DNA from: Nymphaea colorata
Taxonomy: Eukaryota; Streptophyta; Magnoliopsida; Nymphaeales; Nymphaeaceae
Length of the DNA stretch: 64,000 nt
Reading direction: 5' to 3'
Assembly (NCBI RefSeq): GCF_008831285.2
Contig: NC_045142.1
Location: 7,166,713 to 7,230,712, forward strand
Shown: positions 1 through 55,582 of the stretch, piece after piece
How positions within the stretch are numbered: the stretch's first letter is position 1
Layout: every line of letters begins with the position of its first letter
Translations under genes and position numbers: made by a program
Notes under the pieces: generated by a model
What the model saw: only the letters and a program-made list of their open reading frames with translations
The model's database searches: none
What the model was told of the DNA's origin: nothing

Positions 1-870
1 ATTATTTTGTGCGTCTTTCCATTCGGATGTTCTTTTTTTTCTGTTCGGCTGTAATTGTTTAAAAAAAAAAAAAAAAATTAGGTTGAGGGCGTGCGACGAA
101 AGCCGTCGGGCTTCCGTTGCAGCCATCAGGAGGATCGGAGAAGGGGACGAAAGGATCGGCCGGCGTCAGTCGCCGTTGGGCGATGGCGGGCCTCCTACCG
201 TTGGGGCGCGTCCCTGCCTGTGGCCACCCACGCCGTTGGGTGGCCTGTCGGTGCTCTCTGCGTATCCGTTGCAGCCATCTGAAGCCGACGCATAAGGAAA
301 GGGGACGCCGGGTTCCGCCGTTTTGGCGGGCGACGGACGGCCGTTAGGCGACGGCCGGCTTCTGCCGTCCTGGCGGGACTCGCCGGCGATGGCTCCCTTG
401 CGTCGGGCGTTGCAGCCATTGAAGAAGAACGGGAAAGGGGCAGTGGGAAGGCGACGGCAGGGAGAGGTGATGGCCGGCAGAGGGCGACCGCCGGTGACTC
501 AGTTGTCGCCGGACGGGCCCGTGCGACCCGCCGCCATCCACCCATAGTCACCGGCGACCCACCGGTGGCCTCCTCGCCGCTTCAGCAACCGCCCAAATCT
601 TAAAAAGGGGCAGAATGTAGAAGAAGGGGAAACCAACCAGAATCGGCCGGTTTCCGGCGGGCGTCGCCCGCCATCGTGGCGGGCGACATCCGGCGACGTT
701 GGCGGCACCCGCCGGTGGCCACCCATGGTGTTGGGTGGCCTGTCGGTGGAGCTTCACCGCCCGCCTGCCGTTCGGTGGAGGCGACTCGCGCGGTCGAGCA
801 GGCGGGTCGGCCCGGGTCGGGTCTTGACAGACCCGATCCGGATCCATCAGTTTAAAAAAAAAAAACATTT
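1..870 (+). repeat. GC-rich leader of copia family A
   Basis: Untranslated leader between the missing 5' LTR and gag. It is very GC-rich and repetitive, with a recurring module of GGCCACCCA, a short spacer and TGGGTGGCC (for example near 220-255 and 712-742) that can fold on itself. The element at 50000-53972 carries an equivalent leader at 52724-53480 with the same modules. Several open frames cross this stretch on both strands, but they only reflect GC-rich sequence lacking stop codons and are not called as genes. Confidence 0.7.
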
Positions 871-904
871 TGCCGCCTCGCGCCTGAGCCTCTGCGTTTG
901 ATTT

Positions 905-1310
905 TTCGAACCGGGTCGGACCTTTTGAAACGATTCGAACCAATTTAGGACCGGTTCATATAGTTTTGGAACCGATTCGGGCCTTTTCCAAACCGGCTCA
1001 TCCAGTTTTTAAACGATTCGGGCTTTTCCAGACCGCTTCAGTTAGTTTTCGGACCGATTCGGGGCTTTTCTGACCGGTTCATTCAGTTTTGGAACCGATT
1101 TGGGCATTTCAAAACCGAGTCAATTGATTTTTGAATCGATTCGGGCATTTTCAGACCGGTTCACTTGATATTTAGACCTATTCAGGGCTTTTCAGACCGG
1201 TTCATTGAGTTCTGGAACCGTTTTTAGCCAATTTTAACCGGTTCAGTGGGTTTTAGAACCGATACGGTCCATTTTTGACCGGTACGTTCAATTTTTAGAC
1301 TGGTTCAGCC
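905..1310 (+). repeat. degenerate 41-bp tandem repeat
   Basis: About nine to ten diverged head-to-tail units. The unit contains GACCGATTCGGGC, then TTTTC, then GACCGGTTCA and a T-rich end. The cores GAACCGATTCGG, AAACGATTCGG, GGACCGATTCGG and GGAACCGATT start near 969, 1011, 1051 and 1091, giving a period of about 41 bp. It lies in the leader of copia A1 and is absent from the related leader at 52724-53480. The stretch from 1310 to 2028 is A-T rich leader with no recognised feature. Confidence 0.8.
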
Positions 1311-2028
1311 CTATGTAGGGGCATGTGGGTGTTCTAATTGTGGTTTAAGAATGGTACAGGCCATTTTAAGGCCGATTCAGTAGTTCTTGACCCTCTTAAG
1401 CACGATTATGATACTGGTTTATAAATTTTGGATACTTTTGGGCCCCTTTTATTGGATCATTTTGTTTTGGATTCAATGTAGGGCAAATTTGTATGTAATT
1501 TTAATTCATGTATAATGTTTTGCATGTTTTAAATTTGTGGGTATACTTTAGATGAATGTTTGGAATGTGAATTTGAACTTTGGCCATGTCTGTTGTTTCA
1601 AATGAGTAAGTTTGTATTTTATGTCGCGAAAGTGACCTCTGTTGTACGAATTTGCCTGTTTTGAACATTAGATGATAGTATACTTGATCCATGCGGGCAA
1701 TGATCAACCCAAAGGAGGATTGTTGTTTGGTCAGGTTTAAGTATACAAGGCAATGAATATGTGATAATTTTTCAGGTTTCCATGTAAATAGCGAGTCAAT
1801 CCAAAGATAGGCTCGTTGTTTGACAGAGTTAATTATCTATATTCATTGTTGACCAAGAATACCACTTGCAGTTAGTATTTCAATCCAAAGATTGGATATT
1901 AACGTTGCACCAGTACCTTGTGATGGGATTTAGGCCATTGTATTTAAATTCAGTTATATTTGTTAGTACATGTTTTGATTGTGAGCATGTTTGGTATTTT
2001 TGTTCTTTGTACAGTGAGTTCTGCTTCC

Positions 2029-2772
2029 ATGATATCTGCAAATTTGAGTACTGTTCCTGAGTTAAATGGTTCAAATTTTAAGGACTGGAAAGAAACTGTT
2101 ATGATTGTTCTGGGTTGTATGGATCTAGACCTTGCATTTAGGGAGTTATGCCCACCTCATCCAACAGATCAAAGTTCTCATGAGGATAAGCGGTACTTTG
2201 AACGGTGGGAACGCTCAAACCGCATGTGTCTAATGATCATGAAGAGATCAATCCCAGAAAATTTTAGGGGCTCTATTACTGAAAAGGCTAGTGCCAAGGC
2301 GTTCATTGAAGAGATTAAAAAAAGTTTTGCTAAAAATGAAAAGGCTGAAACAAACACTCTTTTGAGTAAACTTGTGACGCTGAAGTATAAAAGTAAAGGG
2401 AACATACGGGAGCACATTATGAAAATGTCTCATCTTGCTTCAAAATTATAGGCGCTAGGTCTGAGGTTACCCGAAGACTTTATAGTGCATATGGTTCTTC
2501 TTTCTCTTCCACCACAGTTTGGACAGTTTAAAGTTAGTTATAACTGTCAGAAGGAGAAATGGACTCTTAATGAGCTCATTTCGCACTGTGTGGAAGAAGA
2601 GGAGAGATTGAAGCATGATAGGATAGAAAGTGCTCACTTGGCTACTACGCCTAAAAGTAAGAAAAGAAAGACTGTTAAAGAAGTTGCAGTTGACCAATCA
2701 TCTGTTAAGAAACAAAAGAAGCATAAGGAATGCCTATCAGGCTGCTTCTTTTGCAAGGTGAAGGTCATATGA
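2029..2772 (+). pseudogene. copia A1 gag, interrupted
   Basis: Gag nucleocapsid precursor of the retrotransposon. The start ATG at 2029 opens a typical copia gag beginning MISANLSTVPELNGSNF, with the NGSNFKDW motif and the long helical gag core. An in-frame TAG at about 2449 breaks it once; the same frame resumes immediately and continues through a lysine-rich tail to the first two cysteines of a CCHC zinc knuckle at about 2742-2757. A one-base frameshift splits the knuckle, the histidine and last cysteine being in the next frame at 2768-2785. Non-functional as it stands. Confidence 0.8.
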
Positions 2773-3425
2773 AGGAGGATTGTACTGAGTATCACGCATG
2801 GCGTGAAATGAAGGGTACATTTCTCACTTTGGTTTGTTCTGAGGTTAATTTAACTTCAGTACCCAGAAACACTTGGTGGGTAGATTCAGGTGCTACTACT
2901 TACATAAGTGTCTCTATGCAAGGCTGCATCAATTGTCGAACGCCAATTGATGCTGAAAGATTCATCTATGAGGGTGATGACATGAAGGCGAATGTTGAAG
3001 CCATAGCAGATTTTCAGTTATTGTTAAAGACTGGTTGCTATTTGAATTTGACAGAAACTTATGTGGTACCATCTCTTATATGGAATTTGGTTTCTTATTT
3101 CCTCATTGGACAAATTCGGTTATTATTGTTCATTTGGAGGAAGTAAATTTAAGTTGTTTCTGTACTCAAATTTGATTGTCACTGGTTGTTTGTCTAGTAG
3201 CGATAACCTTTATTTGCTTGATACGGTTGCTTCATATAATGAAACCTTGCATGTTACGTTTAGTGGTACTAAAAGAAATTAGCCAAAGAGAATTCTGTTA
3301 TGTTATGGCATTGGCGCTTAGGACATTTCTCTGAAAAGAGAATATAAAGGCTTATGTCAAAAGGAATTCTTGAGTCTCTTGATTTTGCAGACTTTAATGT
3401 TTGCATTGAATGCATAAAAGAAAAA
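2768..3425 (+). pseudogene. copia A1 protease and gag-pre-integrase region
   Basis: The aspartic protease motif WWVDSGA lies at about 2875-2894. It is followed by the copia gag-pre-integrase domain with LWHWRLGHFS near 3300-3325 and the paired C..C motif near 3400-3420. A frameshift near 3100 and stops after 3340 break the frame. Downstream the integrase core is missing: the sequence passes through about 300 bp of unrecognisable frame into reverse transcriptase, so an internal deletion removed most of integrase. Confidence 0.7.
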
Positions 3426-3741
3426 TGAACAAACATTAAGGGGTTACAAGTTTTTTAATCCATTCAGTAAGTCTTTCTTTGAAAGGGAAACACCCATTTC
3501 TTTGAGGATATTGAGTTTGGGAGGTGATCAGGTTATGAACATTGCCTTTTGAAGAGGGACCTGAGTCCACTCTATTCAGAAGAAGGCAATGATGGTGATC
3601 TCTATACTGAAGAACAAACTCAACTAGCTCAAGAAAATTAAGTAGAGGTGTCACTAAGGAAATCCATATATGGACTAAAGCAAGTTTTCCAGTCATTACA
3701 AACTTCATCAAGTTATAGTTTCATTTGGTTTCGAAATTAAT

Positions 3742-4600
3742 ATGGTTGATGAATGTGTATACCAAAAGTTCAGTGAGGGCAAATTTATCTTTCTGGTTTT
3801 ATATGTCGATGATATATTGTTGGCAAGTAATGATGTGGGCATATTGCATGAAACTAAGAAATTTTTGTCATCAAAGTTTGACATGAAGGATTTTGGTTGT
3901 GCATCTTTTGTATTAGGAATCCAAATATTTCGAGATCATTCTCGGAGTATTCTTGGATTATCACAAAAGACCTACATTGATAAGGTGCTTCAGCGATATG
4001 GTATGAAAGATTGTAAAGCAGGAGATACTCCAGTTGCTAAAGGAGACAAGTTTAGTCTCAAACAGTGCCCTAAAAGTGAAATCGAATCTAAGGAAATAGA
4101 AATGATTCCCTATTTGTCTGTTGTGGGAAGCCTTATGTTTGTACTCGTTTGGATATTGCATTTATCATTGGAATGTTAGGTAGATACTTAAGTGATCCTG
4201 GTATGGATCATTGGGAAGCAGCCAAAAGGGTATTGAGGTACTTACGAAGAACAAAAGGTTTTATGCTCACATACAGGAAGTCAGACCAGTGGGAGATCAT
4301 TGGGTATTCAGATTCTGACTTTACTGGGTGCCATGATAATGACATTCAATCAGGTTTTGTGATTGCAGAATTTTGTCACGAGGCTGCGCATTATGTATGG
4401 TATAGAAAGACCGCTAAAGTTGTTGTGTGACAATAATTCAACAGTCATGTACTCTTATAACAGCCACAGTTTGTCAAAGTCGAAGCACATTGACATTAAG
4501 TTTTTGGGCTGTTAAAGAGGGGATACAGAATGGTCAGGTGTCTTTAGAGCATATTGGGACAAATTCTATGATTTGCAGATCTGTTTACCAAGGGTTTAAC
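3742..4600 (+). pseudogene. copia A1 reverse transcriptase / RNase H remnant
   Basis: The C-terminal half of RT is open from 3742 to 4179, with the catalytic YVDD at 3802-3813 and the following KKFLSSKFDMKDFG region typical of copia. A frameshift near 4140 moves to 4149-4430, which carries the RT-RNase H connection (GRYLSDPGMDHW, VLRYLRRTKG) and the RNase H start YSDSDFTGC. More frame changes follow before the KHIDIKF segment near 4485. The N-terminal RT half is lost together with integrase. Confidence 0.8.
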
Positions 4601-5060
4601 ACATAAGGTCTTTCACGAACATATTGTTCATATGGAGGTGTTATCCTTGGATGATGTGCTGGTTTAGTGGGAGTTTGTATTTTGTTTGCTCTTATGCATG
4701 GACACATATTCAGTTTTTTCTGCAGAATAAAGTTTAAAGTTCTTTGGTTCCATTCTGTGTTTATGTGCTTATGTTTTTTATCTCCATAAGGTTTTAAAGT
4801 TGGACCAGTTGAGAATAGACATGTTGTAATCACATTACATGTAATTCTCATGCTATACATCCATATCAGATCTATGTCATTGATTATGTTAACATTTGTG
4901 ATCATTGAAAGTTTAGCTAATTTTGATATAGCGAAAGCCGCTTTGGTTCTGTGTTGATATGGTCATGGACGAGATTGGTGAAAATGACGTTTAATAAGAT
5001 AGCAATTATGAGCTCCTAAGGTTTTGTGTAATGTCTGAATGTATCAAGATATATTTGGCC

Positions 5061-5072
5061 CAAGTGAGAGAT
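5061..5072 (+). other. polypurine tract of copia A1
   Basis: CAAGTGAGAGAT abuts the TG start of the 3' LTR and matches the reverse complement of the tract beside the LTR at 50000-50476. It is the expected primer site for plus-strand DNA synthesis. Confidence 0.65.
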
Positions 5073-5547
5073 TGTAAGATCATTTGGTGGGCCGACATAT
5101 GTCAATTAGGAATTTCAGACATTATGGCTGTCTTAACGTAAATATCCGCTTAAGTGATTGCATTTTGGGATATTACGTCATTTTAGATGGTATGGGGTAA
5201 TTTTGAAATGTATAGATACCAGTACACAATTACGGACTCTTTGATGGGCGGAATTCATAATTGTCCTCATTATAAAATGGTAGTGGTCCCTGGGGTCGTG
5301 CAATGGTTGCCTGAAACATTGGTTTCTAGGGTTTTCCTCTTCCCCATCTGAGAGAGACCTCAAGCGATCCGCACGTTTCCTGGAAGACCCTGCTGCGATC
5401 TTCCCGTGCACCAGATCAGATGGATTCAGGTACACTTCCGCTTCAGTTTAAGGTTTCGTTTATCTCAATGATTTAGCATGAGCATGATCCTGTTTTAGGG
5501 TATATACGTTTGGTTTTGTATATGCGTTATGAGGAGAAATCCCAACA
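5073..5547 (+). repeat. 3' LTR of copia A1 (475 bp)
   Basis: Begins TGTAAGATCATTTGG and ends GAAATCCCAACA, with TG..CA termini. It matches the whole length of the two 477-bp LTRs at 50000-50476 and 53496-53972 in reverse complement, defining family A. Small indels and substitutions separate it from them. Confidence 0.9.
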
Positions 5548-39822: not shown

Positions 39823-40155
39823 TGTTGGCGTACTACATTCAACTTTCTCTAACAACTATATATAGAAAAACAAAAACTTGATCCTCACGCTAATAACCGC
39901 TGGTCATTCCATGATCTCCTCCATTTCTGCCCTCAAGTCTCGCACTATTTTCTCCATCACCCATGATCTTGGGAACCACACACACATTCACAAGTTCTCC
40001 TCACGTCTTCACTTTTCACTCCCACCAATTTCTCAATTCTTCTTTAACTATACATGATTTGAAACCGATGGAACTCACGTACCCACGAGCTCCTTCACGC
40101 ACTCACACTTACACACGTTCCCATGAGTTCCTCCACAACAGGAGTTAGAGCAACA
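39823..40155 (-). repeat. 3' LTR of copia B (333 bp)
   Basis: On the + strand runs from TGTTGGCGTACTACATTC to GAGTTAGAGCAACA. Same length as the partner at 44354-44686. The internal TATATATAG may be the LTR's TATA region, but on the coding - strand this is inference. Confidence 0.95.
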
Positions 40156-40166
40156 TTCTCCCCCCT
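40156..40166 (-). other. polypurine tract of copia B
   Basis: Read on the - strand as AGGGGGGAGAA immediately before the 3' LTR, a strong plus-strand primer site. Confidence 0.85.
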
Positions 40167-40521
40167 AATCCTGGTGTGGCTCGAGATCTCGAACACCTAG
40201 CAAGTGTCGCATTGTTGCCAACCTTGTCATTGGCAACACCTTCGTCAACAGATCAGCTTGTTGCTCATCTGTTCGCACAAAATCCACAATAATTTGTCCT
40301 CTTTCAACACATTTACGTATGAAATGGAACTTTGTGTCGATGTGTTTGCTACGTCCATGAAAAACTGGGTTCTTTGTTAATAAGATTGCAGACTTATTAT
40401 CCACATATAACTTTACCACCTGCAGCTCTTTTCCAACTAGCTTAGCCAGTAGTCCTCTGAGCCAGAGTGCCTGACATGTTGTCGTAGTTGCTGCCATGAA
40501 CTCAGCTTCGCACGAAGACAA
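40165..40521 (-). pseudogene. copia B RNase H domain, C-terminal end of pol
   Basis: Open for 118 codons. Starts with the SSCEAEFMAA block and contains LYVDNKSAI and KHIDTKFHFIR, the canonical C-terminal RNase H motifs of copia. It ends with DLLTKVLP and the terminal stop just before the PPT. The upstream join to RT is interrupted, so this is part of a dead polyprotein although this segment is itself intact. Confidence 0.85.
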
Positions 40522-40627
40522 AGTAACGGTCTTCTGCTTCTGCGAGTTCCATGAGACTAGGCTTTCATTTACTTAGAATGTCATGCCTCCGGTGCTTTTC
40601 CGGTCATCGACGTCGCCCGCCAAGTCA

Positions 40628-41625
40628 CTATCTGTGAACCCGACAATCACCTCTTCTCCCCTTCCTCTGGTGTATACGAGACCGAAGTGCCTTGTGGTGC
40701 ATCACTGTCGGTCTCTCCATGAATCTACTAGCTACACTGACGGCATACGAAAGATCTGGTCTTGTGTAGAGAAGATACCTCAGACATCCGATGAGTCGTC
40801 GATACTCTGTTGCATCCACTGGCTGTCCTTCGGGATCCTTGTGCAGTTGCGACCTTGGTTCCATGGGAAGTTTTGTGGGATTACAATCAAGCATACCAAA
40901 TTGCATTAACACCTTCTTGACATAGGTTGTTTGCTTGATCTGGATACCGTCTTCACCTTGTGCGACCTCAGTCCCAAGGTAATAGGTGAGCAAGTCGAGG
41001 TCGCTCATCTCAAACTCAGCCATCATCTACTGCTTGAATGCAGCGATCGCCTCCGCATCCTCCCCTATTACAATTATATCATCAACATAAACTCCAACAA
41101 TGACATTGGCGCGGTTTCTTCCCCTCGTATACATGGCTTGTTCCAGCGCGCACTTTGAGAACCCAAGGTGCTTCAGGCTTCGATCCAGCCCCGTGTTCCA
41201 AGCACGAGGTGCTTGTCGGAGACCGTACAATGCCTTGTTTAGAGCACCATATGCTCATTATTCTTCACAGTGAAACCTTCTGGCTGGGCTACATAGACCT
41301 CCTCCTCAAGTTCGACATTGAGGAATGCTGATTTGACATCAAGGTGATGGAGTTGCCACCCACGGCTGGCTGCGACGACAATGATGACTCGTACGGTGTC
41401 GAGCCTAGCGACTGTCGCAAACACCTCCTCGAAGTCGATCCCTTGCCGCTGGACATAGCCTTTCACTACTAATCGTGCCTTGTACTTGATCACCTCTCCG
41501 TCTGAGTTTTTCTTCAATTTGAACGCCCATTTGAGTCTGATTGCTTTGGTTCTGGCTGGTAGGGTTGTCAACGTCCAGGTCAAGTTTTTTTCAATGGACT
41601 CAATCTCCTTGGCCATTGCTTCCAC
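40628..41625 (-). pseudogene. copia B reverse transcriptase, three broken frames
   Basis: Segments 41625-41239, 41230-41027 and 41026-40628 make up the RT domain. The first carries TWTLTTLPA and [10 protein letters not shown], followed by [21 protein letters not shown] and LDVKSAFLN. The second has MYGLRQAPRAWN and catalytic YVDD (41078-41089). The third has the LLTYYLG and YRRLIGCLRYL blocks. A short frame break lies between the first two and a stop between the second and third. Confidence 0.85.
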
Positions 41626-43062
41626 CTATGCTGGCTGATCAGCTGCCTCTTGGTAACATGACGGCTCCTCTGTTGCCACAAGCATGGCCTCTTCTTCGAT
41701 GTCTTGATCGTCAAGCTCGACGCGCTGAACGTCTCTCATGATATCTTCGATATGTCTATATTGAACGGGTCCGTCTTTACTGTCCTCCATTTCTAAGGCT
41801 GTGACATTTTCATCTGCTAGCAATTTCCGAGCTGGCGTCATTGTTGGTGTTGCTTCGCCACCCAGCGGTGTCGATGAAGAAGCCGATTCACCTAGCTCCA
41901 TGGACACCAACCTTCCTGCTTGTCCACCTATAACTAAGTTGCCTATTGCCGACTCAATATTAGACTCCTCCTCAACAGTGAAATTCGACGATTCACTGCC
42001 TCCTGCATCCATGTTTCAATTCTACATTAGTTTTTCTTCAAATTTAGCATCACGACTTACATGGATTTATTCATGCCGTGGATCGAATAGTCGGTGTGCC
42101 TTGCAGCCATCCTCGATGCCGAGATACACCATTGGCTGGCTGCGATCATCAAGCTTATTGATGTATGGCGTCGTCACCATGGCATGCGCTATGCAGCCCA
42201 ACAATGGAAGATGCACAAGATTCGGCTTCCTACGACTCCAAGCTTCATACGGGGTGTGCTCGCCCATGGCCTTCGTAGGCAAGTAGTTTAGCAGGTAGAC
42301 TGCGTGTCGTACTGCCTCTCCCCAAAATCTTCCTGGCATGCTCATGCTCTTGAGTAGAGTTCTTGCCATTGCCATCAGCGTCCTGTTCCTCCTCTCCACC
42401 ACACTGTTTTGTTGTGGTGAGTATGGCGCAGTGAGGTGCCGCGCAATGTCTGCCTGTTCACACACATTGGCGAACTCGAGAGAGAGGAACTTGCCACCCC
42501 GATTGGTCCGGAGCGTCATGCGTTCTCGACCAGCACCTTGATCCTCATAAACGTCGAGCATGCCTGGTCTTTTGTTCTGATCACGCACAACCACATCCAA
42601 CGAATGAAGTCATCAACAATTAATAAGAAACAACTATTACGGCAGGGGTGGGTGGCGTGATCAGGTTGCAAAGATCAGCGTTCAAGAGTTCGAGTGGCTC
42701 CTTCGCTCGATAGTTGGCTGCCAACGGGAACGGTTGTCTCGTCTGCTTCGCCACCAAACACTCCTGACATAACTGAGCGGGATGAGTGATCGGCGGTATT
42801 CCGGTTGCCATCTTCCTGTTTACAAGCATCTTCATTGCTTGAAAGTTGACATGGTGAGACGAGCATGTCACAACCATGCCGGATCCTCGAGATTTGCCAG
42901 GAGACACATTGGCCTTGCAATATGCAGTTCGATGCGATAGAGACGATTTGGCGTGCGTTTCACCTTCATGATCAACTGCCATGGATTTTTGACGAACACC
43001 TCCAGTTTGTCCTCATCCATAACCACCTTGTGGCCTGCCTTAGTGAGTTGCCCGAGACTCAC
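41626..43062 (-). pseudogene. copia B integrase region, frameshifted
   Basis: Gag-pre-integrase sequence (SLGQLTKAGHKVV) opens at 43062, then broken frames lead into integrase. The segment 42600-42067 keeps RHLTAPYSPQQNSVVERRN and the region up to YLGIEDGCKAHRLF. Relative to 50872-52720 this copy has lost bases around 42515-42530, damaging the second catalytic aspartate region, and reads TNRGGKF where the other reads TDRGNEF. The acidic linker frame 42012-41626 joins integrase to RT. Confidence 0.8.
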
Positions 43063-43443
43063 GATATTGCAGCGAAGCCTTGGAATATAATATACTTCCT
43101 AGAGCAGCCATTGATCATCATTTTTGCATCTAAATAGATGATCAGCACTGATGAGCCATTGCCAAACTTCACCTTGTCGGTGATTGCCTCATCCAGCTCC
43201 CGAAACCTAACCTTGTCTATGGTCATGTGGTTGCTGGCGCTGTTTTCCAGGTAACAGGCATTAGTAGTTTTCATGACCTGCTCGGTCCCGTGCAGTTCCG
43301 GCCATACTTGCTCCTCATTCAGCAGAACGACATCCTGCCGATCTTGCCATTCTGGTGGTTCAAGTGCTGCGGACACCACTTCTTCCAAGTTCAGTGTCAT
43401 CAGCTTGTGTAAGATGTGCCTCCTCCTTCCTTTTGGGAGCCTT

Positions 43444-43485
43444 ACACCAGTTCATGTAATGCCTCAATTCTTGGCAATTGAAGCA
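43444..43485 (-). other. CCHC zinc knuckle of copia B gag
   Basis: Spacing CX2CX4HX4C is complete in one frame (CFNCQELRHYMNWC), marking the nucleocapsid end of gag. Confidence 0.8.
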
Positions 43486-43662
43486 ACGGATATGACTTTT
43501 GTCACGACCACCACCCCCAGAGCCACCTGCTCTATCATTGAGTGGGAAGTCGCCGCGTCCGCGTCCACCTCGGCTGCGAACCGCTCCTTCCCCGTGAGTC
43601 CTCTCCTTTCAGGTCAATGATGGGTCGCGGCCGCTTCTCTTCTGTTGTGCCTCCCACTCGGC

Positions 43663-44304
43663 CTAAGTGAGAAGTAGTTGAACATCTCCGTTGCCACCGG
43701 TACCGAATGCTCGGGGACGCGAGCGTTCTTCATAGGTCTTGAGTCGTCCCACGGCCTCTTCAAACAACATTGTGTTGAGGTCACAAAACTGCTCTATGCC
43801 GGCGATTATGCTGAGAAACCGATTTGGAACAGTGTCAAACAGCTTCTTCACCAGGGCGGCGTCACTTAGGGTTCCCCCCAAGTTGGCATATTTGACGGAC
43901 ATTCAAGTGAGTCTGCCCGCATATTGATCCAACGTCTCTCCTTCCTGCATTCGCATGGCGTCAAAGTCGCTCTTCAATGTTTGTAAGCACGCATTCCTCA
44001 CACAATCTGCCCCGACGAATCTCTTCTTGAGGCAATCCCAGACCTCCTTCGTTGTCGCCTTCTTTGCCACCTGCATTAGGAGATCCTCCGGGAGAGCTTG
44101 GAGAAGATGCGACCTTACCTTCTTGTCCTTCCTCGTGTCGACAGCCACACCGGCCGTCGGCTCAACAGACTCCCAGACGCCTTGATCTTCCATCATGGCC
44201 TGGACCCTAATCACCCAGCTGGTGTAGTTGGTCGCCGTGAGCAGCGGGTATTAGAGCGTCCCACTTCCGATCTCCTGCGTTGCCTCGTTTGTGATGATCG
44301 ACAT
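43663..44304 (-). pseudogene. copia B gag
   Basis: The ATG at 44304 opens MSIITNEATQEIGSG. An in-frame TAA follows at codon 18, after which the same frame gives YPLLTATNYTSWVIRVQAMM, the conserved copia gag opening. The helical gag core continues to 43903 (QALPEDLL, WDCLKKRFVGAD), a stop occurs there, and the frame goes on from 43902 to 43663 (LVKKLFDTVPNRF, FEEAVGRLKTYEER). Two stops therefore inactivate an otherwise recognisable gag. Confidence 0.85.
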
Positions 44305-44339
44305 CGGCTTGAATCAAAGGAGCTTTGGCATACAACCTA

Positions 44340-44351
44340 GCTCTAATACCA
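44340..44351 (-). other. primer binding site of copia B (initiator Met tRNA)
   Basis: Read on the - strand as TGGTATTAGAGC two bases after the 5' LTR, one mismatch from the complement of the initiator Met tRNA 3' end. Confidence 0.85.
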
Positions 44352-44353
44352 AA

Positions 44354-44686
44354 TGTTGGTGTACTACATTCAACTTTCTCTAGCAACTATATATAGAAAA
44401 ACAAAAACTTGATCCTCACGCTAATAACTGCTGGTCATTCCATGATCTCCTCAATTTCAACCCTCAAGTCTCGCACCATTTTCTCCATCACCCATGATCT
44501 TGGGAACCGCACACACATTCACAAGTTCTCCTCACGTTCTCATTTTTCACTCCCACCAATTTCTCAATTCTTCTTTAACTACTCATGATTTGGAACCAAT
44601 GGAACTCACGTACCCACGAGCTCCTTCACGCACTCACACTTACACACGTTCCCATGAGCTCCTCCACAACAAGAGTTAGAGCAACA
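44354..44686 (-). repeat. 5' LTR of copia B (333 bp)
   Basis: On the + strand runs from TGTTGGTGTACTACATTC to GAGTTAGAGCAACA. No indels relative to the partner LTR. Confidence 0.95.
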
Positions 44687-48529: not shown

Positions 48530-48725
48530 TTTTGATTATGGGGTTGACGCAACAACCTGTGCTCCTTGCCTTCAGGCAGTAGACCAGTGGAAGGCTTTGC
48601 TTCGTCGTCATCCATCGTTTGTCGGTTGCTTGATCACGATCAATGGAACCTTGATGGGGAGGAACTTGCAGCTGGTCATGATCGGGAAGGAGATGGGGCA
48701 GAGACAAGGTAGGGCCCATATGGGC
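48530..48725 (+). pseudogene. B3-like array, copy 0 (3' end only)
   Basis: Shares GGAACCTTGATGGGGAGGAA, CTGGTCATGATCGG and GGAGATGGGGCAGAGA with the 3' ends of the later copies. Only the tail downstream of the B3-like domain is present. Confidence 0.55.
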
Positions 48726-48900
48726 CTCGGCCCTACCTCAAAAAAAATTTTTTAGAAAATTTACATGTTAATTTTCGAAAATTTCACTTGTTTTCTATAT
48801 ATTTTTTTAAACAAAATTACAGGTAAACTTACAAAATTTAACTTGTTTTATATAAAATTTTTGAAAAATGATATTTTGGTATCGTTAGTAAGTTGAGAGA
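48690..48900 (-). repeat. R170 interspersed repeat, copy 5
   Basis: Reverse orientation, beginning GGGCCCATATGGGCC then CCTACCTCAAAAAA. Part of the duplicated unit of the B3-like array. Confidence 0.65.
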
Positions 48901-48969
48901 TGTATACGCTTTCTAACAAGTCCTACTTAGCTTGGAGTTTGCATTGTTTCCTAGCTGAATAGATCATCA

Positions 48970-49690
48970 GTAGAGTGTAAAGTTTCTTGGGGTGTCGCTG
49001 ACTAACGTCCTGTTATTGATGAATTCTCAAAAGGCAAAGGGGAAAGGAGTTTGCAGCAACAGAGTAGAAGAAAAGGGCAGCCTCTTTCTGCTGGCCAACG
49101 CAGCCTTAGGAAACAGGTAGAAGCAAAAGGGGATGGAGGTGGACAAGAAGGCGAAAGCATTCCTGTTCCCCTTCCTACGGAGCGTGAGGTACCGGAGCAA
49201 GCCTCGCAGGTGGCCGGAGGTGGTGGCCAGGTGCCATGCCTTGTTGCCCATGGTGAAATATGTTTTTGTGAAGTAGCTAACACAGACAGACGTCCATGGT
49301 CATCACAACCGGCTGTTGATCCGGAAGGACGAGGAGAACAGCTTGCTGAAGGAGTTGAGTGAGGAAGAGAAGCGGATTGTGTGTGACGAAGGTGAAAAGG
49401 GCCTGCTGGTTCCAACACTAGGCGAGGAAGATCAGCCATTGGCGCTCGTCTTCATCTACTGTCGACCTACCGCGCCTATATCTTGAAGAATGACGCGTCC
49501 AAGCTCACCGATTCCAAAGGTTTTCGAGCATGGAACTCCGTGGAGCTCCTCGCCTCAGGCAGCGGACCATTGGAAGGCTCTGCTTCATCGTCATCCGTTG
49601 TCTGCCGGCCGCTTGTACTGATCCCAATCAACAGAACCTTGATGGGGAGGAACCCACATCAGGTCATGATCGAGGAGGAGATGGGGTAGA
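48970..49690 (+). pseudogene. B3-domain-like pseudogene, array copy 1
   Basis: One frame at about 49260-49480 reads LTQTDVHGHHNRLLIRKDE, then EEEKRIV and GEKGLLVPTL. This follows the layout of the small plant B3 DNA-binding family often labelled DUF313 (L-TDV...NRL-I, EE-K--L, then W-N----L-----W). A frameshift near 49470 moves to AYILKNDASKLT and FRAWNSVELL. An in-frame TAG precedes the LTQTDV segment. The N-terminal part is lysine-rich. The family assignment is from memory of the motif pattern and is tentative; the gene is certainly broken. Confidence 0.5.
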
Positions 49691-49890
49691 GACATGGTAG
49701 GGCCCATATGGGCCATGGCCGTACCTCAAAAAAAAAAAAATGTATTTAAATCTTAAAAAATTTCAGTTGTTTTATATCATTCTTTTTTAAACAAAATTAC
49801 ATGCAAATTTTACAAAATTTCATTTCTTGTTTATATAATTTTAGAAAAATGATATCTTGGTATTGTTAGTAAGTTGAGAGATGTATCTGC
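49690..49890 (-). repeat. R170 interspersed repeat, copy 6
   Basis: Second reverse-oriented copy in the B3-like array, with GGGCCCATATGGGCCATGG at its start. Confidence 0.65.
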
Positions 49891-49999
49891 TTTCTAACAA
49901 GTCCTACTTAGCTTGGTGAACAGATCTTATTACTTGCATTGCTTCATTGTTGAACAGATCCTCAGTAGAGTAGAGTGTAGAGTTTCATGGGGTGTCGCT

Positions 50000-50476
50000 T
50001 GTTGGGATTTCTACCCATAATGCATATACAAAACCAAACGTATATACCTTAAAACAGGATCATGCCCATGCTAAATCATTGAAATAAACGAAACCTTAAA
50101 TTGAAGCAGAAGAGTACCTGAATCCATCTGATCTGGTGCATGAGAAGATTGCAGTAGGGTCTTCCAGGGTACGTGCGGCGCACTTGAGGTCTCTCTCAGA
50201 TGAGAAAGAGGAAAACCCTAAAAACCAATGTTTCAGGCAACCATTAGCACGACCCCAGGGACCACTACCATTTTATAATAAAGGACAATTATGGATTCCA
50301 CCCATCAAAGAGTCCGTCATTCCATACCGGTATCTATACATTTCAAAATTACCCCATACCATCTAAAATGACGTAATATCTCAAAATGCAATCACTTAAG
50401 CGGATATTCACGTTAAGACAACCATAATGTCTGAAATTCCTCATAGACATATGTCGGCCCACCAAATGATCTTACA
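50000..50476 (-). repeat. 3' LTR of copia A2 (477 bp)
   Basis: On the + strand from TGTTGGGATTTCTACCC to CCAAATGATCTTACA. Followed by ATCTCCCACTTG, the complement of the PPT. Confidence 0.95.
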
Positions 50477-50490
50477 ATCTCCCACTTGAG
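50477..50490 (-). other. polypurine tract of copia A2
   Basis: Read on the - strand as CTCAAGTGGGAGAT next to the 3' LTR. Confidence 0.75.
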
Positions 50491-50871
50491 CCAAATATGT
50501 CTTTGTACATTCAGACATTACATAAAACCTTAGGAGCTCATAATTGCTATCTTATTAAACGTCATTTTCACCAATCTCGTCCATGACCATATCAACACAG
50601 AACCAAAGCGGCTTTCGCTATAATAAAATTAGCTAAACCTTCAATGATCACAAATGTTAACATAATTAATGACATAGATCTAATATGGATGTATAGCATG
50701 AGAATTACATGTAATGTGATTACAACATGTCTATTCTCAACTGGTCCAACTTTAAAACCTTATGGAGATCAAAACATAAACACAAAATGGAACCAAAGAA
50801 CTTTAAACTTTATTCTGCAGAAAACTGAATATGTGTCCGTACATTAGAGCAAACAAAAAAAATACACAGAT

Positions 50872-51731
50872 GACATACGAAAGATCTGGTCATGTGTGGA
50901 GAAGATACCTCAGACATCCAATGACTCTTCAATACTCTGTTGCATTCACTGGCTGTCCTTCAGGATCCTTGTGCAGCTGCGACCTTGGTTCCATGGGATG
51001 TTTTGTGAGATTACAATCAAGCATACCAAATTGCATTAACACCTTTTTCGCATAGGTTGTTTGCTTGATCCGGATACTATCTTCGCCTTGTGCCACCTCA
51101 ATCCCAAGATAATAGGTGAGCAGGTCGAGGTCGCTCATCTCAAACTCAGCCATCATCTGCTGCTTGAATGCAGCGATCGCCTCTGAATCCTCTCCTGTTA
51201 CAATTAGATCATCAACATAAACTCCAACGATGATGCTGGCGCGGTCTCTTCCCCTCGTATACATGGCTTGTTCCAGCGCGCACTTTGAGAACCCAAGGTG
51301 CTTCAGGCTTCGATCCAGCCGCGTGTTCCAAGCACGAGGTGCTTGTTAAAGACCGTACAATGCACCATTGAGGAATGTTAATTTGACGTCAAGGTGATGA
51401 ACTTGCCACCCACGGCTGGCTGTGACGGCAAGGATGACTCGTACGGTGTCGAGCCTGACAGAGTAAACACCTCCTCGAAGTCGATCCCTTGCCGCTGGAC
51501 ATAGCCTTTCGCTGCTAATCTGGCCTTGTGCTTGATCATCTCTCTGTCTGAGTTTTTCTTCAATTTGAACACCCATTTGAGTCTGATTGCTTTGGTTTCG
51601 GCTGGTAGGGTTGTCAGCGTCCAGGTCGAGTTTTTTTCAATGGACTCAATCTCCTTGGCTATTGCTTCCACCCTTGCCGGCTGACCAGCTACCTCTTGGT
51701 AACACGATGGCTCCTCTGTTGCCGCAAGCAT
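50872..51731 (-). pseudogene. copia A2 reverse transcriptase segment (family B origin)
   Basis: Frames 51731-51378 and 51264-50929 carry the RT blocks [23 protein letters not shown] and LDVKLTFLNGALYGL, then YVDD at 51208-51219 and LLTYYLGIEVAQGED. About 80 bp present in copia B around 41240-41325 are deleted here, and the domain stops near the chimera junction so the C-terminal part and RNase H are missing. No functional RT is encoded. Confidence 0.85.
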
Positions 51732-51855
51732 GGCCTCTTCTTCAATGTCTTCATCGTCGAGCTCGACGCGCTAAGCGTCTCTCATGATATCTTCGATATG
51801 TCTATGTCGAACGGGTCCGTCTTTACTGTTCTCCATTTTTGAGGCTGCGGCATTT

Positions 51856-52923
51856 TCATCTGCTAGCAATCTCCGAGCTGGCGTCATTGTTGGCGTTGCT
51901 TCGCCACCCATCGGTGTTGATGAAGAAGCTGATTCGCCTAGCTCCATGGACACCAACCTTCCTGCTTGTCCGCTTGTAACTGTTGCCTACTGCCGACTCG
52001 ATATTAGACTCCTCCTCAATAGTGAAATTCGACGATTCACTGCCTCCTGCATCCATTTTCCAATTCCACATTAGTTTTTCTTCAAATTTAGCATCACGAC
52101 TTACATAGATTTTTCTACGCCGTGGATCGAATACTCGATGTGCCTTGCAGCCATCCTTGACGCCGAGATACACCATTGGTTGGGTAAAATCATCAAGCTT
52201 CTTGAGGTGTGGCGTCGTCACCATGGCATGCGCCGTGCAGTCGAACAATCGAAGATGAGCAAGATCTGGCTTCCTACGACTCCAAGCTTCATACGAGGTG
52301 CGCTCTCCCATGGCCTTCGTAGGCAAGTGGTTCAGTAGGTAGACTGCTTGTCGTACCGCCTCCCTCCAAAATCTTCCTAGCATGCTCATGCTCTTGAGGA
52401 GAGATCTTGCCATTGCCATCAGGGTCCTGTTCCTCCTCTCCACCACACCGTTTTGTTGTGGTGAGTATGGCGCAGTGAGGTGTTGCGCAATGCCTGCCTG
52501 TTCACACACATTGGCGAACTCGCGAGAGAGGAACTCGTTACCCCGATCGGTCCGGAGCGCCTTGACGTGATGCCCACACGCAATCTCGGCCAGTGCCTTG
52601 ATCCTCATAAACGTCGAGCATGCCTGGTCTTTTGTTCTGATCACACACAACCACATCCAATGAGTGAAGTCATCAATGATTAATAAGAAATAACTATTAC
52701 AGGCAGGGGTGGGTGGCGTGATCCGGATTGGGTCTGTCAGGACTTGACCCGGGCCGATTCGCCCGCTCGACCGCGCGAGCGGTCGCGGGCGTCGTCTCCA
52801 CCGCTCGCCTGCCGAATGGCAGGCGTGCGGTGGTGATCCTCTGGCAGGCCACCCAACTGCGTGGGTGGCCGCCGGTGGGTCCCGCCTCGATGGCCGGCCG
52901 TCGCCGCTGCGATGGCCGACCAT
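51856..52923 (-). pseudogene. leader-integrase fusion frame in copia A2 (355 codons)
   Basis: A long open frame starts in the family A GC-rich leader, crosses the chimera junction at 52720-52723 and continues through the family B integrase core. The first catalytic Asp lies in FLLIIDDFTHW, the second in RTDRGNEF, and the Glu in GVVERRN, with 35 residues between the last two as in the D,D35E signature. It then runs to the YLGVKDGCKAHRVFDPRRRK region. The first about 90 residues are leader-derived and unlikely to be a real domain, and the zinc-binding N-terminus of integrase is missing. Whether the fusion is ever translated is unknown. Confidence 0.6.
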
Positions 52924-53480
52924 CGCCCGCCCAAAACTGGTCGGAATTGACCTGTTTTGGCCATTGCCTGATTTTCTCCCCTTTTCTGATTGTGGGCGCC
53001 TGAAACGTCAGCCAGAAAACCGCCGGCAGGCCACCCTACAGCGTGGGTGGTTGCCGACGGGTCGCGCTAGGATGCGGACGTCCGGCCATCGCCTAAGGGC
53101 CGGCCGACGCCTGCCTGACCGCCGTAAATCGATGCCCTAGCCTGAATGCCCTTCTGCCCGTTCCTGTTCCTTCGCCTTACGGTTGCATCTGAGGCGCAGA
53201 GGGCACCGCAGGCCACCCACAGCATCGGGGTTTCCTCACGACTGCCGGAAGCCTGCTGTCGCCTACCAGCGATGGATGCCCTCCGATCCAGCCGTCCCCT
53301 TGCCCATGCCTCGTCCTCCTGATGCTGCGACGGAAGCCCGACAGCTTCTGGCGCACACCCTCAACCCAAACTTTTTTTTTTTTTGAAAAACTTGCAGCCG
53401 AAGAACCAAATGGGAAACATTCGAACGGGAGGAACGCACAGAAAATCATCCAAAGGATCAACGATTCAACAATAAGCATA
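52724..53480 (-). repeat. GC-rich leader of copia A2
   Basis: Contains repeated GGCCACCCA...TGGGTGG modules (near 52849-52876, 53030-53052 and 53211) like the leader at the left edge of the window, and an oligo-A (T on the + strand) run matching that at 60-77. The 41-bp tandem array of copia A1 is not present. Confidence 0.75.
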
Positions 53481-53493
53481 GACTCTGATACCA
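53481..53493 (-). other. primer binding site of copia A2 (initiator Met tRNA)
   Basis: Read on the - strand as TGGTATCAGAGTC, two bases from the LTR. The first 11 bases fit the initiator Met tRNA complement. Confidence 0.85.
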
Positions 53494-53495
53494 AT

Positions 53496-53972
53496 TGTTG
53501 GGATTTCTTCCCATAACGCATATACAAAACCAAACATATATACCCTAAAACAGGATCATGCTCATGCTAAATCATTGAAATAAACGAAACCTTAAACTGA
53601 AGCGTAAGCGTACCTGAATCCATCTGATTTGGTGCACGGGAAGATCGCAGCAGGGTCTTCCAGAGTACGTGTGGCGCGCTTGAGGTCTCTCTCAGATGGG
53701 GAAGAGGAAAACCCTAGAAACCAATGTTTCAGACAACCATTAGCACGACCCTAGGGACCACTACCATTTTATAATAAAGGACAATTACGGATTCCACCCA
53801 TCAAAGAGTCTGTAATTCCATACCGGTATCTATACATTTCAAAATTACCAAACACCATCTAAAATAACGTAATATCCCAAAATGCAATCACTTAAGCGGA
53901 TATTCACGTTAAGACAGCTATAATGTCTGAAATTCCTAATAGACATATGTCGGCCCACCAAATGATCTTACA
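53496..53972 (-). repeat. 5' LTR of copia A2 (477 bp)
   Basis: On the + strand from TGTTGGGATTTCTTCCC to CCAAATGATCTTACA. Same length as its partner with substitutions only. Confidence 0.95.
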
Positions 53973-54720
53973 TCGCTAGCTAATGTACCGTTGTTGATGG
54001 ATTCTCAAAATGCAAAGAGGAAGCGGCTTTGCAACAGTAGAGCAGAAGAAAAAGGCAGCCTCTTCTTGCTGGCTAACGCAGCTTTAGGAAATCTGCAGAA
54101 GAAAAAGGGGAAGGAGGTGGATGAAAATGAGATTTCTTCCTCGTTCCCATTCCTCAGGAGCGTGAGGTAATGGAGCAAGTAGGCCTGGGCATTGGGTCGG
54201 GCCGTCGGCGGGTACCCGGTAACCAGCTCGGTCAGGCCCGAATCCGGGCCGCCGGCGGGTATCCGGTAACCGGCCCAATGCGCCGGCGGGTACCCCGTAA
54301 CCGGCCCACTCGGGCCCGGATTTGGGCCGAGAAAACCGGGTGCCAGGCCTGGCACGGGTGGCTGCCCAGCCCGACCCGTCCCCCATCCTTCTCCTCTACC
54401 CGTCCCTCCTCCTCCTCCTCCTCCCGTCCCCCATCCTCATCCTCCTCCTCCCCTTCTTCCCCCTTCCCTCCGCCTTCTTCCCCCTTCTCCCCCCGTGCTC
54501 GACTTCATCTATTGGTCGAGCAACAATGCCTATGTCTTGAAGAAGGTCTACTCCAAACTCGCCGATTCCAACGGTTTTCAAGCATGCAATTCAGTGAAGG
54601 TCCTCACCTTGAGGCAGCAAACAGTCGAAGGCTCCGCTTGTATTAGCCACGATCTACAAAACCTTGAGGGGTAGGAACCTACAGCTGGTCGTGATATGGG
54701 AGGAGATGGGGCAGAGAAAA
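53973..54720 (+). pseudogene. B3-domain-like pseudogene, array copy 2 (split by copia A2)
   Basis: Left part of this unit lies before the copia A2 insertion (49840-49999) and the rest after it. The frame near 54105-54168 gives KEVDENEISSSFPFLRSVR and stops. A GC-rich insert and a CT-rich stretch (54180-54495) replace the middle of the domain. The end resumes at about 54497-54605 with AYVLKKVYSKLADSNGF and NSVKVLT, equivalent to the C-terminal strands in copy 1. Confidence 0.5.
54180..54390. mobile_element. GC-rich insert with GGGCC-type MITE end
   Basis: Starts TAGGCCTGGGCATTGGG like the MITE family and contains three GGCGGGTA..CCGTAACCGGCCC-type tandem modules, ending near CCCAGCCCGACCCG. 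It lacks the usual AT-rich core. I could not define a target duplication. Confidence 0.45.
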
Positions 54721-54930
54721 GGTAGGGCCCATATCGGCCATGGGCCTTGGCCCTACCTCAAAAAAAAAAATTGTTTTTTTAAGAAAATTTCCATCTTAAT
54801 TTTAGAAAATTTCATTTGTTTTGTATAAATTTTTTAATATGTAAATTTTACAAAATTTCACTTGTTTTATCGAAAATTTTAGAAAAATATTATTTTGGTA
54901 TCGTTAGTAAGTTGAGAGATGTATGGGCTT
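54715..54930 (-). repeat. R170 interspersed repeat, copy 7
   Basis: Third reverse-oriented copy in the B3-like array, again followed by the TATCGTTAGTAAGTTGAGAG sentence. Confidence 0.65.
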
Positions 54931-55019
54931 TTTAATAAGTCTCACTTAGCTTGGTGAACAGGTCTTGTTGTTTGCATTGTTTCTTAGCTGAACAGATCAT
55001 CAGAAGAGTGCAGAGTTTC

Positions 55020-55215
55020 TTGAAGTGTCGCTAACTAACGTCCTGTTGTTGATGGATTCTCAAAATGCAAAGGGGAAGCCAGTTTGGATCAGTAGAGGAG
55101 AAGAAAAGGGCAGCCTCTTCCTGCTTGCCAACACAGCCTAAGGAAACGGGCACGAGTAGAAGGGGAAGGAAGCATACGAGAAGGAGAAGGCCTCCTTGTT
55201 CCCCTTCCTCAAGAG
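55020..55215 (+). pseudogene. B3-like array, copy 3 (5' part only)
   Basis: Keeps GTGTCGCTAACTAACGTCCT, GTTGATGGATTCTCAAAATG and GAAGAAAAGGGCAGCCTCTT from the start of the unit, then ends at CTCAAGAGCGG. It gives a paralogous empty site for the copia A2 insertion. Confidence 0.55.
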
Positions 55216-55582
55216 CGGTATGGACTCTGTTTAGTGTGAAATAGATAAGACTGTCAGGGCTTGCCCCAGCCCTAACGGATGTTCAATGTATATCAGATGG
55301 GGCCTGACTAGTGTTAGGCGCAAGTTATTTCTGTTTTCTTTCAGTTTCTTTTAATTGTGGTTAAGGGTGTTTTTTGCTTAAATAATTTCTTTTGTTTCGG
55401 GTTGAGTTTGGTTAAAGTATGCAACCCAACCCAGCACGTCATGTACTCAAACCCTCTTGTGAGAAAAGCAAACCCTAATGAAGTTATTATTGATGTGAAG
55501 AGGAGCTGGGCTTCTTGCGGCTGTGTGTGTGAGTGCTACAACGAGCAGTTGTAGTGATCGTTGGCCAACGAGGCTAACAACT

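Follow-up and report, generated by a model that had tools for sequence, protein, structure and literature searches.

The window analysed in this work is a stretch of 64,000 nucleotides of Nymphaea colorata DNA (NC_045142.1, positions 7,166,713 to 7,230,712). On its minus strand, at 50000-53972, lies an LTR retrotransposon in which the shell of one family (A) surrounds an integrase-reverse transcriptase (RT) interior of another (B). Members of both families are found elsewhere in the window, and the relevant features, each with its basis, are the following.

1-5547, plus strand: family A copy A1, with gag and RT pieces, its 5′ LTR lying outside the window (sequence comparison, Pfam)
39823-44686, minus strand: family B element with two LTRs and the target-site duplication (TSD) TTTGG; tree sister of the cassette (sequence comparison, tree)
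49995-49999, unstranded: left copy of the TSD, TCGCT (direct reading, paralogous empty sites)
50000-50476, minus strand: 3′ LTR, family A, 477 bp (93.1% to the 5′ LTR, 92.8% to the 3′ LTR of A1)
50477-50487, minus strand: putative polypurine tract (PPT), sense AAGTGGGAGAT, adjoining the 3′ LTR
50477-50862, minus strand: family A 3′ UTR (95.3% to A1, 95.4% to family A copy L059)
50863-50866, minus strand: 3′ joint of A and B, with TGTA (sense) in common (the window copy is the sole one spanning it among 40 scored)
50867-52719, minus strand: family B cassette from the integrase core to the RT, with stops and frameshifts (B matches; Pfam rve, SH3_retrovirus and RVT_2)
50929-51345, minus strand: C-terminal RT fragment with YVDD (RVT_2, E 6.9e-35)
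51346-51770, minus strand: N-terminal RT fragments, split over two frames (RVT_2, E 4.4e-15 for 51378-51770)
51859-52719, minus strand: integrase core and SH3-like domain (rve, E 1.3e-13; SH3, E 1.9e-20; both in the open reading frame 51856-53007)
52720-52723, minus strand: 5′ joint of A and B, with GATC in common (the window copy is the sole one spanning it among 40 scored)
52724-53495, minus strand: family A leader, GC 62%, with degenerate internal repeats (comparison with A copies)
53483-53493, minus strand: primer-binding site (PBS), TGGTATCAGAG (sequence read), which we take to be that of the initiator-Met tRNA
53496-53972, minus strand: 5′ LTR, family A, 477 bp (93.1% to the 3′ LTR)
53973-53977, unstranded: right copy of the TSD, TCGCT (direct reading, paralogous empty sites)

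The two LTRs have TG...CA ends, are equally long and differ by a K2P distance of 0.074. The surrounding sequence exists in three related copies (48561-55217, 72–80% alike) of which the chimera occupies the middle one, leaving two natural empty sites; at both (48939-49099 and 54938-55132) TCGCT occurs once and uninterrupted, which makes the insertion real. In sense order the integrase precedes the RT (rve in 51856-53007, RVT_2 in 50929-51770), as in Ty1/copia. The integrase/SH3 frame (51859-52719) runs for 287 amino acids without a stop and continues in frame with the A leader; further along, one RT piece (51346-51636) scores just below the curated RVT_2 cut-off (30.3 against 31.6 bits, Pfam), and about 80 bp found in B are absent near 51363-51368. 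A tblastn search (E<=1e-3) with a gag piece from each family gave no match in the element, which is therefore a non-autonomous derivative and not an autonomous copia element. Neither Rfam at gathering thresholds nor a viral-contig scan using the integrase gave any match. The element is dead; found only once and with its RT frames broken, it has no known effect.

Much of what the preliminary description said about structure holds: the LTRs, leader, PBS, PPT and 3′ flank are of family A (with the reservation that the leader diverges strongly from that of A1), the interior is of family B, short identities mark the breakpoints, the LTRs are of the same length and framed by a perfect 5-bp TSD, and gag is lacking. 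It went further in taking the TSD and the equal LTRs as proof that the recombinant itself had been reverse transcribed. Both features are there, but the proof is not, since they would persist even if the interior had been exchanged afterwards.

The parent families share near-identical PBSs, and to judge by their proteins, which are 27–32% identical, they are distinct Copia lineages. Between A1 and the cassette, the RT pieces agree at 25% of residues. A further comparison is offered by copy L060 (C8), a 6.7-kb element with A LTRs at both ends, its own integrase and A1-like sequence on both sides of it; the cassette integrase is 32% identical to this copy over 261 residues (tblastn, 4.6e-43), and the RT 27%. 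A1 itself gave no match to the cassette integrase at E<=1e-3, nor did copy L059 (C11) at E<=1e-2, with which A1 is colinear (90.6% over 2.47 kb), and A1, lacking an integrase core, is thus not a full reference for its family. The family is large (582 first-look LTR candidates in the genome, the best 40 of which were scored), and among the 40 scored LTR matches ten pairs were found, eight spanning about 5.3–6.06 kb and two 6.5–6.7 kb. Taken with these eight short spacings, the lack of integrase in A1 (3282-3679) and L059 suggests that an integrase-deleted, helper-dependent form of family A may be common, although it is directly seen in two copies only.

The borders between the A and B parts are sharp. 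The stretch 50000-50858 matches A1 5547-4680 at 92.8%, and 50863-52726 aligns to B 40733-42665 as two blocks (92.0% and 89.5%), whilst about 845-4675 of A1 has no counterpart in the element. At the 5′ joint A1 and B have exactly GATC in common (52720-52723), and at the 3′ joint exactly TGTA in sense, i.e., TACA on the plus strand (50863-50866). On the B side, among the copies tried from 29 such loci and counting window B, GATC is kept in 9 of 9 and TGTA in 8 of 8; on the A side GATC is kept in five of the ten alignable copies (an eleventh, L014, could not be aligned) and TGTA in the one further copy tried. Four or more shared bases occur in 1.7% of random A/B joints, so that both joints by chance have a probability of about 3e-4. 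They connect the A leader to the B integrase and the B RT to the A 3′ UTR, that is, non-homologous positions of the two families, and therefore look like microhomology jumps and not homologous crossovers. The 3′ joint falls just past a PPT-like GTGGGAG (A1 4665-4680), some 0.4 kb upstream of the LTR-adjoining PPT; by reading of the sequence, this motif follows the end of the A pol in A1.

The recombinant appears to be present once in the 407.8-Mb assembly (783 contigs), in which the window lies on C5. With the 5′-joint query (52650-52790) 112 candidates were found, and among the best 40, which were scored, one spans the joint (the window copy), 34 match on the B side only and five on the A side only; with the 3′-joint query (50820-50920) the best 40 of 212 candidates comprised again the window copy, 38 with the B side only and one with the A side only. 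As any spanning copy is expected at the top of the ranking, the search lends no support to the active, proliferating chimeric family that had been envisaged, no further copy with either joint appearing among the 40 candidates scored for each. Mixing of A and B was likewise seen in none of the 54 other fetched loci (43 B and 11 A, some overlapping the same element) with their flanks of about 1.5 kb.

The long GC-rich leader of family A (window 1-844 and 52724-53495, and copies L010-L020) carries degenerate internal repeats. That of the chimera is 65–67% identical to the A1 leader in the longest permissive alignments, 72–73% over two stretches and 81–83% at the leader ends if gaps are ignored; at non-CpG sites the two elements differ at 36 of 213 positions of the leader ends and at 22 of 435 of the LTR. 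A third donor for the leader, which such figures could bring to mind, is a weakened candidate: in all 11 other A copies the leader is less similar to that of the chimera (73–86%) than the LTR is (88–95%), meaning that the leader is hypervariable. What is left is a suggestive conflict between trees. The leader of the chimera groups with L010 (78/88) and its LTRs with L014 and L017 (82/78), neither grouping being well supported. With the leader constrained to L014 and L017 the p-AU is 0.009; with the LTRs constrained to L010, or to L010, L011 and L013, it is 0.061 and 0.005, respectively. In the best LTR tree the two LTRs of the chimera are not sisters, and constraining them together gives a p-AU of 0.43.

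As to the origin of the cassette, a tree of 30 fragments, built on 1354 of its 1853 bp (the integrase-RT part), places it as sister to window B, only 5.3 kb away (99/94), with L031 and L032 next. Such closeness of the sister is unexplained under random co-packaging; by our own estimate, the chance of the neighbour being the sister is about 1 in 37, if some 37 other integrase-bearing B copies are equally likely donors. The sister relationship is, nonetheless, a near tie, which softens this estimate. The end branches are 0.053 for the cassette and 0.058 for window B, the path lengths from the cassette to L030, L031 and L032 are all 0.11, so that L031 and L032 are as near to it by path length as window B, and L031 has the highest identity (91%). 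BLAST with the integrase-RT part puts window B first at 90% and the next two at 89% (best 40 of 55 candidates), and the alternative in which L031 and L032 group with the chimera is rejected, if only mildly (p-AU 0.023). The cassette and window B have nine substitutions in common against at least 90% of the other copies, five of them exclusive, and no exact gap run exclusive to the pair was found. Window B had earlier been excluded as the donor on the grounds of deletions private to each copy; this is a weak reason, given that deletions can arise later and that this very copy is the tree sister of the cassette. In the sister B copies L031 (C13) and L032 (C7) the RNase H region is lost from a common point, matching window position 40688, and past it the two share about 0.8 kb of AT-rich, repeat-bearing DNA, which could be read as a segmental duplication or as another B derivative whose 3′ end was exchanged.

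If the interior was acquired at about the time of insertion, the cassette should have gathered private changes at the pace of the LTRs, and this is what is observed. Within the 1354-bp integrase-RT part, to which the clock was restricted, the cassette carries private changes at 31 of 1090 non-CpG sites (2.8%) and 22 of 190 CpG sites, against 10 and 12 of 435 (2.3–2.8%) and 4 and 5 of 40 for the chimera LTRs; other outgroups give 20/869 and 22/952 for the cassette and 7–11 of 404–423 for the LTRs. The match suggests that the cassette parted from its B relatives about at insertion. In addition, the A1 LTR and both chimera LTRs form a star with 15, 14 and 17 unique changes, and therefore the insertion of A1, that of the chimera and the parting of the cassette from B seem to lie close in time. 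At the grass rate of 1.3e-8 per site per year, which is uncalibrated for this plant, the LTR divergence corresponds to about 3 million years. Two observations agree less well with this. At 0.053, the raw end branch of the cassette is above the 0.037 expected from halving the LTR distance, an excess for which the higher CpG content of the cassette may account. There are also eight gap events between the cassette and B in the integrase-RT part and none in the two LTR pairs (477 and 333 columns), so some of the cassette indels may predate the insertion, being carried, for example, by a defective donor RNA. The LTRs of window B are 94.9% identical, and the non-CpG split between the cassette and B does not differ significantly from the divergence of these LTRs (95/1591 against 13/311, p 0.23).

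The clock and the structure together favour a switch of templates while reverse transcription was under way, shortly before integration, and we regard it as probable that this non-autonomous mosaic LTR retrotransposon was formed in this way in a single cycle and then integrated. Minus-strand synthesis would run through the 3′ LTR, PPT and 3′ UTR of a family A RNA, jump at TGTA to a family B RNA packaged alongside, entering it in the RT region, copy about 1.86 kb of it as far as the beginning of the integrase core, jump again at GATC onto a family A leader and end at the PBS; enzymes provided in trans would then insert the product and duplicate 5 bp of the target. We infer the co-packaging, the order of the jumps and the source of the helpers, and since the A and B proteins are just 27–32% identical, the co-packaging of RNAs so distant is an assumption. 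Two jumps of the RT at 4-nt identities would explain at once the structure, the sense orientation of the cassette, its want of ends of its own (no LTR, no TSD), the outer TSD, the LTRs and the clock, and switching at microsimilarities is described to insert a limited part of a foreign RNA, there a cellular mRNA, into the cDNA of LTR elements (PMC5408686, partial text). The earlier suggestion of template switching thus remains the best reading, the clock being better evidence for it than the TSD and LTRs, but the same clock fits an early repair patch, and a local DNA donor would explain a tree sister 5.3 kb away. Copy number does not help, for as long as the joints do not recur it provides no proof that the finished recombinant was retrotransposed.

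Such a patch would have arisen in an ordinary A element, already integrated, that underwent an internal double-strand break; synthesis-dependent strand annealing (SDSA) templated by a B copy, perhaps the neighbour, would have mended it, with microhomology at both ends. It would leave the LTRs and the TSD intact, 4-nt joints suit it equally well, and the nearby B element is both tree sister and top BLAST match (best 40 of 55 candidates). Yet the private changes of the cassette, equal to the LTR clock, demand a patch nearly as old as both insertions; no lesion of B is shared with the cassette; and the split between the two is not younger than the LTR divergence of B, although this last comparison is not significant (p 0.23). 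DNA repair patches longer than the fillers of excision sites are known. SDSA filler DNA has been described in plants, but the fillers at excision sites are of 1–123 bp with a mean of 13, which 1.86 kb far exceeds (PMC4423477, partial text). We consider this origin unlikely, although the neighbouring tree sister gives it some weight. Recombination between linear extrachromosomal A and B cDNAs before integration would leave a structure, a clock and a TSD no different from those of template switching, but it requires double joining at 4-nt matches and no feature here demands it, which makes it very unlikely. That a B element was inserted into an A element and later trimmed at both ends would account for B material within A material, but neither an LTR nor a PBS of B nor a nested TSD is found in the element, the cassette does not carry a duplication of its own, both ends are exact 4-nt joints, and about 845-4675 of A1 lacks a counterpart; the idea is highly improbable. 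Hardest of all to believe is that the cassette is normal for family A and A1 the odd copy. A1 indeed has no integrase match, but all 11 other A leader loci fetched (the best leader matches) run on into an A1-type leader and A gag, L059 is colinear with A1, L060 matches A1 around a different integrase, and none of the 43 B loci has an A LTR, leader or 3′ UTR in its flanks; for the copies examined, this reading is refuted.

Mosaic LTR elements formed by template switching are already published (PMC1950507, PMC5668417, PMC4079200, PMC5408686), and the following comparisons go as far as the partial texts of these papers. In the complex LTR elements of Triticeae, attributed to abnormal template switching (Sabot and Schulman 2007, PMC1950507), a TSD and matching outer LTRs likewise point to one event on two RNAs, but there two core sequences of one family lie around a third LTR that they share, whereas here the interior was swapped from another lineage. 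The centromeric recombinants of grasses are also mosaics, ascribed to co-packaging and template switching or to nested insertion and illegitimate recombination (PMC4079200); they join related subfamilies and several have proliferated, in contrast to the 27–32% protein identity and the one copy found here. Onsen recombination in Arabidopsis, too, is ascribed to reverse transcription of two packaged RNAs, within one family and demonstrated in new insertions and extrachromosomal DNA (PMC5668417), whilst here it is between families. In LTR-mediated retroposition and mRNA capture of the Bs1 type, part of a foreign RNA is similarly joined at microsimilarities, the RNA being that of a host gene (PMC5408686) and not, as here, that of another retrotransposon. 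Less usual in the present case are the parental distance and the exchange of an internal pol block through two jumps of 4 nt each; titles and abstract openings, in a search with subscription journals mostly outside its scope, showed no such recombinant between Copia lineages.

It is tempting, if rather doubtful, to speculate that distant Copia lineages shared particles, that many A elements may lack integrase, ride on the enzymes of other lineages and acquire integrase-RT blocks from them, and that the chimera and its sister B element could stem from the same burst. In conclusion, formation of this element during reverse transcription would show that one particle can bring together RNAs from Copia lineages whose proteins are only about 30% identical, and would widen the range across which LTR retrotransposons shuffle their modules; the two joints provide a clean test case.
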